64,000 nt of DNA, taken from positions 1,116,001-1,180,000 of the forward strand of contig NZ_LT900021.1 of assembly GCF_900198835.1 (NCBI RefSeq). The letters run 5' to 3'. Origin of the DNA: Thermococcus henrietii. GTDB taxonomy: Archaea; Methanobacteriota_B; Thermococci; Thermococcales; Thermococcaceae. Numbering within the stretch: the first letter of the stretch is position 1; each line of letters begins with the position of its first letter. Of this stretch, positions 12,453-18,405 are shown piece by piece. The translations under genes were made by a program, and so were the position numbers. The notes beneath the pieces were generated by a model. The model was given only the letters and a program-made list of their open reading frames with translations. It made no database searches and was not told where the DNA came from.

Positions 12453-14905
<2,453 letters not shown>

Positions 14906-15030
14906 GATGCCCCCTATATTCCCAATTCTTTCAAAACCATCGCTCTCCTCGTGCTTCTACCGTTATACCGTATGAGAAAAGGGAGAAAAGGTTAATAACA
15001 TCCATCTCCAAAGTCCATTAGGTGTGGGTT

Positions 15031-15333
15031 ATGGCCATTAGCGTGAAGAACTCCGAGGGGGTTCGGCTCCTCATCGAGGAGGTTGCCAAGGCCGTTGGTG
15101 TTTCTCCCGGAGAGCTCTTAGAGTACTACGAGTGGAAGGCCACATTGGAGAAGCTCAAAAGGGCCACGACAAAAAAGATGACGAATGAAGAGGCAATAAC
15201 GTTTCTGCAATCTCAAATGGGGAAACGGAAAATCAGCGAAGAGAAAGCCGTTGAGCTTTACTACGAGGCCCGGGAGGAGATAAAGAGATGGGAGCAAATA
15301 GAGAGAAGACTAAAACAGTTAGGCCTCGAGTAG
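15031..15333 (+). CDS. Putative antitoxin of a PIN toxin pair
   Basis: A 100-residue, mostly helical, charged protein. The N-terminal part (SEGVRLLIEEVAKAVGVSPGELLEYYEW) could bind DNA; the rest is amphipathic helix (EEAITFLQSQMGKRKISEEK) fit to wrap a toxin. The start ATG at 15031 follows GGTGTGG; a GTG nine bases earlier is less likely. It overlaps the PIN toxin gene by 46 bases, the usual arrangement for type II antitoxin-toxin operons. A TATA-like GGTTAATAAC lies near 14991-15000. Antitoxin identity is inferred from the neighbour. Confidence 0.7.
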   Translation: MAISVKNSEGVRLLIEEVAKAVGVSPGELLEYYEWKATLEKLKRATTKKMTNEEAITFLQSQMGKRKISEEKAVELYYEAREEIKRWEQIERRLKQLGLE

Positions 15334-15803
15334 TGATAGACACTTCGGTTCTGTTCTCAGCCGTCATCTCAACTAAAGGTTATGCTTTTGAAGTCTTAGA
15401 GCTTTTGGCGCGGGGTGGCATAATCAATTGCGTTTCTTCCCAGACCTTGGACGAGTACTACCGCAAACTCACTTCAAGGAAAGCACTCAAGTACATTTCT
15501 CTTGAGGAGGCCATCGGGTACTTAACCCTCGTGGAGAGTTTATCTGAGATGGTAGTCATAAAGCACTCTTTCCAAAACTCGGAGGACGTTCTTGAGAAAG
15601 TTCGAGACCCGGAAGACATTCCTTTCCTCGATGTGGTTTATAACGCTGAAGCCGAGTTTTTGATAACGTACGATAGGAGGCACTTGGTAAAGATTCGAGA
15701 TGAAGATACGAAAAAGTTCAAGCTGAGGGGTCATGAGTTCTACATCTTGACGCCGGATGAGTTTATCCACACCTACCGCAGAAGAAAGTACCTAAAGTCC
15801 TAG
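15288..15803 (+). CDS. PIN domain toxin of a putative toxin-antitoxin pair
   Basis: PIN domains are Mg2+-dependent RNases. Acidic residues occur in the expected places: VVIDTSVLFSAV (first Asp), LDEYYRKLTSR (Glu), and DPEDIPFLDVVYNAEAEFL followed by ITYDRRHL (later Asp residues). This pattern corresponds to the COG1569-type PIN toxins. The ORF starts at ATG 15288 inside the antitoxin gene; a GTG at 15333 overlapping the antitoxin stop is an alternative that would trim 15 residues. Codon use and lower GC than neighbours suggest horizontal acquisition. Target RNA unknown. Confidence 0.82.
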   Translation: MGANREKTKTVRPRVVIDTSVLFSAVISTKGYAFEVLELLARGGIINCVSSQTLDEYYRKLTSRKALKYISLEEAIGYLTLVESLSEMVVIKHSFQNSEDVLEKVRDPEDIPFLDVVYNAEAEFLITYDRRHLVKIRDEDTKKFKLRGHEFYILTPDEFIHTYRRRKYLKS

Positions 15804-15898: not shown

Positions 15899-15985
15899 TG
15901 GCGCCGGGGCAGGGATTTGAACCCTGGTGGGCGGACGCCCACGGGATCTCGAGTCCCGCGCCTTCCCAGGCTAGGCTACCCCGGC
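15899..15985 (-). tRNA. tRNA-Ser (anticodon CGA), CCA encoded
   Basis: The minus strand folds as a class II tRNA. The acceptor stem GCCGGGG pairs with CCCCGGC and is followed by discriminator G and an encoded CCA. The anticodon stem CGGGA/TCCCG holds loop CTCGAGA (anticodon CGA). A long variable arm TGGGCGTCCGCCCA and a T arm CAGGG-TTCAAAT-CCCTG follow. The long variable arm and discriminator G identify serine (codon UCG). A TATA box (TTTATAAAA on the minus strand, about 16009-16018) sits ~25-30 bases upstream. Confidence 0.96.
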
Positions 15986-16018: not shown

Positions 16019-16121
16019 CTTTCCGCGAAAACTTTATTAACCTAAGTTAACTAAAATGTCGCCGGTTGCAAAGGTTTAAATCCCAGGAGAACCAATATAT
16101 AAATTGCAGGAGGTGGCAGAA

Positions 16122-17297
16122 ATGGTCGGAATTCAGGTGCAGGAGGTAATGACCGACAGGTTCCAGAAGATAGACATCGACGCCCCCCTTTCTGATGCCA
16201 TAGGAATCTTCGAGAAGGAGGACCCCGACCTCATTCTGGTGTTCGATGGAAACCTGTACAAAGGCGTTCTGACCCAGGACTTGATTATTCGCTCCCACCT
16301 CAAGTGGGACCCCACGAAGGCCAAGGTTAGGGACGCTTACAAGCCTGCCCCGGTTATAAAGCCCGACGAGGATTTGAGCAAGGCCGCAAAGCTTATGATG
16401 GAGGTTGACCTCCGCTCCCTCCCGGTGGGGGAGAGCAAGGCTGAAATCATCGGTGTTATAAACGATATAGCCGTCCTTGATAGGGTTTCTGAGACCGAGT
16501 TTGGTAAAAGAAAGGTAGAAGAGTTCATGACCAAGGACGTTATAACCCTCAAGCCCGACGATACCGTCGCCAAGGCCCTTGCAACGATGCGCGACCACGC
16601 GATATCGAGGATTCCAATAGTTAATGAGGAGGGCAAGCTCGAAGGTCTCGTCACGCTCCACGACCTCATAGTGAGGTTCATTAAGCCCCGCTTCAGGGCC
16701 AAGGCAGGAGAACTGGCCGGCGAGAAGATACCGCCCTTCAGCATGCCCCTCCGCGACGTGATGATTAGGGGAGTCATAACGATTCTCCCGGACGCGAAGG
16801 TCAGGGAAGCGGTCGCCACGATGAAGGACAACGACATAGACGGCCTCGTCGTCGTCAACGAGAACAACAAAGTCGTTGGAATACTCACCGTCAAGGACCT
16901 GCTCCTGCCCATCTCGAAGATGACCGAGAAGGAGGCGAGGTTCTACCTCCAGCTCGGCGGTGACGCCTCGATACTCAGCGACTTCACGAGGGAAAGGATA
17001 ATCGAGGACATCAAGCGCTTCGTCGACGGCTACGAAGATTTACTCGGCCAGGAGGGCATAATATACCTCTACATCAGGCGCTTCCCCGAGAAGTTCAGGG
17101 GAGTTCACCTCTACCAGGCCAGGATGAGGGTCGTCACCGACAGGGGCGTCTTCGTTGCCACCGGCGAAACCTGGGGAGCGATACAGGCGGTTCACGACGC
17201 TTTGAGGGCCATCGAGAGACAGCTCCTTCAGAAGGCAGAATTGGAAAAGGACACGCGCTACGCCAAGAGGTTCCTCGAGAAGCTCGGCCTCAGCTGA
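16122..17297 (+). CDS. CBS-domain protein with C-terminal HPF/RaiA-like domain
   Basis: The 391-residue protein has four CBS motifs: residues ~6-62, ~70-125, ~133-190 and ~210-265, for example VEEFMTKDVITLKPDDTVAK and LRDVMIRGVITILPDAKV. These form two Bateman modules that normally bind adenine nucleotides. After ~residue 285 comes a beta-beta-beta-alpha segment (GIIYLYIRRFPE, YQARMRVVTDRGVFVATGE, WGAIQAVHDALRAIERQLLQ). It closely resembles the end of ribosome hibernation factor HPF/RaiA, where the helix ends in AIDxxxDKLERQL. I therefore infer a nucleotide-sensing ribosome-binding protein. The start ATG follows AGGAGGTGG. Eight bases of its 3' end overlap the DUF835 gene. Confidence 0.8.
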   Translation: MVGIQVQEVMTDRFQKIDIDAPLSDAIGIFEKEDPDLILVFDGNLYKGVLTQDLIIRSHLKWDPTKAKVRDAYKPAPVIKPDEDLSKAAKLMMEVDLRSLPVGESKAEIIGVINDIAVLDRVSETEFGKRKVEEFMTKDVITLKPDDTVAKALATMRDHAISRIPIVNEEGKLEGLVTLHDLIVRFIKPRFRAKAGELAGEKIPPFSMPLRDVMIRGVITILPDAKVREAVATMKDNDIDGLVVVNENNKVVGILTVKDLLLPISKMTEKEARFYLQLGGDASILSDFTRERIIEDIKRFVDGYEDLLGQEGIIYLYIRRFPEKFRGVHLYQARMRVVTDRGVFVATGETWGAIQAVHDALRAIERQLLQKAELEKDTRYAKRFLEKLGLS

Positions 17298-18405
17298 GCT
17301 CCTCGAACTCCCTCTCTATTATTCTCTTCTGACGCTCCTCAAGGGCCTCTGGATTTATAACTAGAACCAGTGTTCCTCCATCTGACACTACCCTGTCCTT
17401 AAGGTTCAGAAGGAACTTAACGGCGTTTTCAAAGCCGTTCTCAAGCATCAGGTACTCGAAGGCCTCGACGTATATTGTCTTGTACCCTTGGGCGAGTGCG
17501 CGCGCGATTAAATCAGTAAGGATTTCAATCTTCGTCGGACTTATTGCATAAATCTGGGGTTTCTCCTCCAGCTTGCCCTCCTTCGCGCGCGTGACCCAGA
17601 ACACGAGGGTCTCAGAGTTAAGGGAGCTTTTCAGGGTTCTCAAATCTTCCCTTGTTATAACAACGGTTCCCGGCATTGACCAAAGCTTGCCGAGCTTTCT
17701 AAAAGCCTCCCCTCTGGAGCGGAACAAAAAAACGCCTTTCTGAGGTGGATGTTTCCCTTCGGTTTTAACGGGGGTCACAGGATAGAACACGAACTTGACT
17801 GCACCGACTGCGGCCATCAGACGGAATATTCCGCCAAGAAAGAACCCTATAGGCGCAAACCAGTTTATGAAACGTGTGACCGGGTAGGTAAGGTTGAGGG
17901 TCCCCAAGAGAATTAATCCCCAGGGAAAGAGCGCCTCTGGCGTTCCCCGTGAGATGACGTATTTATCCAGGACCCACCCGAGGTAAACGAGCGACCCTCC
18001 GAGAACAAGAGAAGGAAGGATGGACCTTTCAGTGGGACTCTTAAAGACGTCGGTTGCGAGAAGAAAGAGCCAGATGTACGAGGCAACAGCTAGAATGGAG
18101 ATGTAAACCGTGTGCCTGAAATCGGTCTTCCCGTACTTCAGATGGAACGCCCCCCAGATTATCAGAATTCCAAAGAAGAAGTTTGGAATCTTGGCGGCTA
18201 TAACGTAAGCCTGGGGATTTATGTGGACACCCAAGGGGGCCAGAATGTAATCTTCGATTCCAATTGCGTCTATGAAGAACGCGGTGCTAATCAAAACCCA
18301 CCCCTTATCCCTAGTTTCGTGGGCTTTGTAAGCAACGGCAACGAAAAGTACCCACCTTGAAATAAAGTTGAGGTAGGGTATGAGGTTGCTTCTAGGGATG
18401 CTCAT
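17290..18405 (-). CDS. Polytopic membrane protein with C-terminal DUF835 domain
   Basis: The N-terminal ~215 residues hold about seven membrane segments (e.g. WVLFVAVAYKA, IPNFFFGILIIWGAFHL, ILPSLVLGGSLVYLGWVL). The C-terminal ~140 residues form a soluble alpha/beta DUF835 domain (GVFLFRSRGEAFRKLGKLW, PQIYAISPTKIEILTDL, KTIYVEAFEYLMLENGFE). DUF835 is a RecA-like-fold domain common in Thermococcales and thought to be a signalling module, but no activity is known. The start overlaps the glmU-like stop (ATGA), so it is the distal gene of that operon. Confidence 0.8.
   Translation of the reverse strand: MSIPRSNLIPYLNFISRWVLFVAVAYKAHETRDKGWVLISTAFFIDAIGIEDYILAPLGVHINPQAYVIAAKIPNFFFGILIIWGAFHLKYGKTDFRHTVYISILAVASYIWLFLLATDVFKSPTERSILPSLVLGGSLVYLGWVLDKYVISRGTPEALFPWGLILLGTLNLTYPVTRFINWFAPIGFFLGGIFRLMAAVGAVKFVFYPVTPVKTEGKHPPQKGVFLFRSRGEAFRKLGKLWSMPGTVVITREDLRTLKSSLNSETLVFWVTRAKEGKLEEKPQIYAISPTKIEILTDLIARALAQGYKTIYVEAFEYLMLENGFENAVKFLLNLKDRVVSDGGTLVLVINPEALEERQKRIIEREFEELS

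Follow-up and report, generated by a model that had tools for sequence, protein, structure and literature searches.

In a 64,000-nucleotide stretch of the Thermococcus henrietii genome (hereafter the window), the gene hibA at positions 16122..17297 of the + strand (391 aa, ATG start, stop codon included) almost certainly encodes the orthologue of HibA of Pyrococcus abyssi (Pab0961, UniProt Q9UYR4), a ribosome hibernation factor. This assignment was made because the product aligns from end to end, without a gap and at 85% identity, with a protein seen by cryo-EM. A PDB sequence search matched it over its full length to 9SR9 chain H (E 3.5e-219, residues 1-390, ungapped), with 332 of 390 residues identical. 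The P. abyssi protein (392 aa; PDB 9SR9, 9SRA-9SRF, 9T7H) has the same architecture, PTC loop, and C-terminal domain (C-domain), and the differences lie only in the sequence. An earlier note, made from the letters of this DNA alone, had guessed a ribosome hibernation factor and had left open whether the protein is an orthologue of a known ribosome-silencing CBS protein; the match to HibA bears out the guess and settles the orthology.

HibA grips idle ribosomes in archaeal cells under stress and protects them. Structures accompanied the publication of the family in April 2026, with P. abyssi HibA as its founding member (Madru et al., Nat Commun 2026, PMC13324472), and T. henrietii hibA is thus a further copy of a published factor. 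In that study, P. abyssi HibA was seen on 70S ribosomes by cryo-EM in three ribosome-bound conformations, and it inhibited translation in a manner requiring the C-domain. The orthologue was abundant on idle 70S ribosomes, with iBAQ values like those of ribosomal proteins, and its deletion in T. barophilus led to a longer lag and ca. 60% lower 70S in stationary phase. From this orthology we infer that the T. henrietii protein likewise binds 70S/30S and acts as a translation inhibitor. With this gene, an archaeal hibernation factor described only recently has a clear orthologue in a genus with working genetics, and a real, recently published protein family proved recoverable from sequence alone by a reader without tools. 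Database names for the family mislead searches: HibA in 9SR9 chain H carries the molecule name 'Dehydrogenase', evidently an inherited annotation error, and according to an earlier paper HibA was misannotated as IMP dehydrogenase.

Domain architecture and fold

The N-terminal CBS module (residues 1-269; 16122..16928, + strand; limits from PMC13324472) contains four CBS stretches (Pfam PF00571, E 4.9e-45), in agreement with the CBS tandem of two Bateman modules read earlier from the sequence. It is 83.3% identical to that of P. abyssi HibA, in which the CBS module binds the large subunit and the 'PTC loop' fills the peptidyl-transferase centre (PMC13324472). This loop, RFRAKAGELAGEKIPPFS, is present at residues 190-207 (16689..16742, + strand), and 15 of its 18 residues are identical to those of P. 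abyssi. The C-domain (residues 270-391; 16929..17294, + strand) is better conserved than the CBS module, with 89.3% identity to P. abyssi HibA; in the P. abyssi orthologue it occupies the mRNA/tRNA channel of 30S (PMC13324472). The two archaeal-specific insertions named along with the PTC loop in that paper are also present, and SIL and KFRGVHL occupy positions identical to those in P. abyssi HibA.

To the C-domain we assigned the HPF/RaiA fold using an AF2 model. The domain was modelled without templates, so the fold check is independent; the model had a pLDDT of 91.2 and the expected order of elements. In a Foldseek search of the PDB, the best 30 matches to the model were all HPF/RaiA/pY (best E 2.7e-6; TM-score up to 0.82 by target length), and the first unrelated entry ranked 31. 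According to the model, the fold is specifically that of HPF/RaiA. The HPF/RaiA-like C-terminal domain seen in the earlier note is therefore real, and so is the resemblance to the second half of HPF/RaiA that it described, except that the similarity is not limited to that half: the Foldseek match spans the whole HPF domain. Folding of the whole protein as a single sequence gave a pLDDT of only 34.6, and the model was discarded; the order of its C-terminal elements was E-H-E-E-E-H.

Sequence comparison linked the C-domain to bacterial HPF weakly and below significance. A Pfam scan of the protein gave zero HPF matches even at E 10, and neither Pfam nor NCBIfam held a model naming the C-domain or the full protein. 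The bacterial HPF/RaiA family PF02482 had zero matches in the protein or the whole genome, with the control positive in 11 of 14 genomes. When a C-domain profile including distant archaeal members was used for hmmsearch, E. coli RaiA/YfiA ranked directly below two fusion proteins of the archaeal type, with an E of 0.18 that is not significant, in an alignment covering the stretch named in the earlier note. One-to-one hhalign of the C-domain against E. coli HPF gave a probability of 26% and E 7e-4. A PDB search showed that the E. coli HPF sequence used in these comparisons is identical to PDB 2RQL. Since this direct similarity is sub-significant, the HPF assignment is based on the structural match and the solved orthologue.

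Among known factors, HPF/RaiA of bacteria and chloroplasts (protein Y, YfiA) has the C-domain fold in common with T. henrietii HibA but is without the CBS module, is 8-21% identical to the T. henrietii C-domain in structural alignments, and is without the two insertions of the archaeal domain (PMC13324472). Dri of Pyrobaculum calidifontis likewise uses CBS modules as a ribosome hibernation factor; however, it consists of two CBS modules without an HPF domain and is treated as a separate fusion (PMC13324472), whereas the T. henrietii protein has one four-CBS module followed by the HPF domain. aRDF (PF0560) of Pyrococcus furiosus, in the sister genus, is also an archaeal ribosome-inactivating factor, but it dimerises 30S subunits and is said to be restricted to Pyrococcus, and the word CBS is absent from the paper describing it (PMC11724365). 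A 406-aa CBS protein (PDB 9L96/9L98/9L9C/9L9V) combines a full-length CBS module with the same C-terminal domain as HibA (phmmer E 1.3e-37 for the full length and E 2e-9 for the C-domain alone), although it is divergent, with 29% C-domain identity. In PDB 9I5V, the match of chain 14 ('RaiA', 401 aa) to E. coli HPF was limited to residues 312-400, and this chain is possibly a further long fusion protein ending in an HPF domain.

Gene context, promoter and probable Phr site

The reading frame opens at ATG 16122 and closes with the stop codon at 17295-17297. ATG 16122 is likely the start of hibA because a Shine-Dalgarno-like GGAGGTGG (16109..16116, + strand), conserved in the genus alignment, lies just upstream and because the equivalent start is common to all 30 genus orthologues extracted. 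TTG 16104, which would add 6 aa, is disfavoured on the same two grounds. The neighbours of hibA are ordinary: an M24 peptidase gene (14009-14905, +), a small gene followed by a PIN-domain gene (15022-15803, +), and tRNA-Ser(CGA) (15899-15985, on the strand opposite to hibA) on one side, and on the other a convergent DUF835 gene (17290-18405, -), beyond which lie a sugar nucleotidyltransferase gene and a BacA-type phosphatase gene. The stops of hibA and the DUF835 gene overlap by 8 bases (17290-17297).

Upstream of hibA, we found a 24-bp operator-like palindrome, TTTATTAACCTAAGTTAACTAAAA (16033..16056, + strand), which is strongly conserved in all 30 Thermococcus hibA promoters aligned (T. henrietii included). 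It is followed by a BRE/TATA-like element, GCAAAGGTTTAAAT (16068..16081, + strand), also conserved in the genus alignment and a candidate core promoter as judged from its sequence. In the same genome, the hsp20 promoter carries a site of equal length (G000:C1:1951703-1951726) that agrees at most positions. The pattern TTTANTAACNNNNGNTAACNAAAA had only two perfect matches in the genome, at hibA and hsp20; because it was written from these two sites, it was bound to match them perfectly. Allowing up to three mismatches gave 16 places in the genome versus 2 for the reversed control. One site with two mismatches precedes a gene (L111) whose start sequence we read by eye as that of the proteasome-assembly chaperone PbaA, a reported target of the heat-shock repressor Phr (PMC10746257). 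The meaningful evidence for an operator at the sequence level is this rarity, the conservation, and the PbaA match.

Taken from its pattern, 16033-16056 is a probable Phr site. Control of hibA by Phr in Thermococcales has been stated by Madru et al. (PMC13324472), and an operator common to hibA and hsp20 fits this published control; the detail of the palindrome is what the present analysis adds to the published picture of HibA. The hsp20 site holds TTTA, TGGTAA, and AAAA, and the hibA site holds TTTA and AAAA with a variant centre. These three motifs are what we take to be the elements of the published Phr site. The genes hibA and hsp20, together with those preceded by weaker copies, form a candidate Phr regulon of this genome. 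With this shared operator, whether ribosome storage is part of the archaeal heat-shock regulon becomes simple to test. Weaker copies of the palindrome also lie ahead of two further genes, identified by eye as prefoldin alpha (L113) and as a DUF1931-type histone-fold protein (L119). Within one mismatch of the first hibA-type pattern there was a single additional place, G000:C1:1700314-1700336 (L079), which lies between divergent genes read by eye as a MinD-like ATPase and a ferritin-like/rubrerythrin-like protein.

Proposed function, alternative readings and distribution

By orthology with P. abyssi and T. barophilus, the C-domain would plug the mRNA/tRNA channel of 30S while the CBS module would take the vacant 50S sites; translation would stop, and 70S particles would stay assembled and protected until growth resumes. 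Phr probably represses hibA in unstressed cells, given the promoter operator in common with hsp20. By analogy with P. abyssi, the CBS3/CBS4 interface probably binds one adenine nucleotide, with AMP preferred: the P. abyssi CBS module bound AMP (shown by ITC), ADP, and ATP with Kd values of 12, 65, and 113 µM, respectively (PMC13324472). The earlier note had proposed that the fusion ties ribosome inactivation to adenine nucleotide levels. Nucleotide binding holds for the P. abyssi module, but added AMP or ATP caused no clear change in the ribosome binding of P. abyssi HibA (PMC13324472), so control of hibernation by adenine nucleotides is a plausible hypothesis rather than a demonstrated property. 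The feature and its outline in that note are confirmed and its interpretation is partly supported; of the two results that it named as contrary to its guess, lack of HPF similarity and lack of ribosome association, neither was found, as the fold matches and the P. abyssi orthologue sits on 70S.

Orthologues were pulled down with the replication and recombination proteins GINS23 and RadB before the HPF domain was recognised (PMC3820547), and among them TK1186 of T. kodakarensis, reported with GINS23, is very probably the orthologue of T. henrietii hibA. These associations make a second role of HibA besides hibernation possible. Yet it is very unlikely that the protein is mainly a replication-fork regulator, linked to GINS/CMG and RadB, with ribosome binding secondary: the pull-down study recognised the CBS domains but not the HPF domain, Foldseek places the C-domain specifically in the HPF fold, and the abundance of the orthologue on idle 70S and the loss of 70S pools on deletion described above (PMC13324472) argue for the ribosome. 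Moreover, the HibA authors raised the possibility that replication partners sequester HibA (PMC13324472). A reading that joins both activities, in which the AMP-sensing CBS module of Phr-controlled HibA would decide between replication/recombination partners and release to the ribosome, seems improbable to us; if true, a single protein would connect replication and ribosome storage with energy charge and the response to heat shock.

Still more remote, to the point of being scarcely credible, is an ordinary CBS metabolic regulator, IMPDH-like or related to the transcription regulator HhpR, whose C-terminal tail is something else. The best partial NCBIfam matches were indeed CBS proteins such as PrdR, IMPDH, and HhpR, but these matches fell far under the curated cut-offs and covered the CBS repeats only. 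The C-domain folds as HPF and diverges less from P. abyssi than the CBS half does (89% vs 83% identity), and its model, the Foldseek result, and the cryo-EM structures of the orthologue contradict such a regulator. HibA as a hibernation factor is therefore the reading that we retain.

The genome is a complete chromosome of 2.16 Mb with a single full-length copy of hibA; the next best match in it (E 9.6e-14) covered the CBS region only. Each of the 74 near-complete Thermococcaceae genomes searched contained hibA, and distant full-length relatives with 32-35% identity occurred in a different family within the class. In a second archaeal phylum (centre G059), a single-sequence search at E 1e-30 gave no match, a result without a positive control and thus uninformative on absence. 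The same genome encodes SBDS, and aSBDS is the factor that accompanies HibA on idle ribosomes (PMC13324472).
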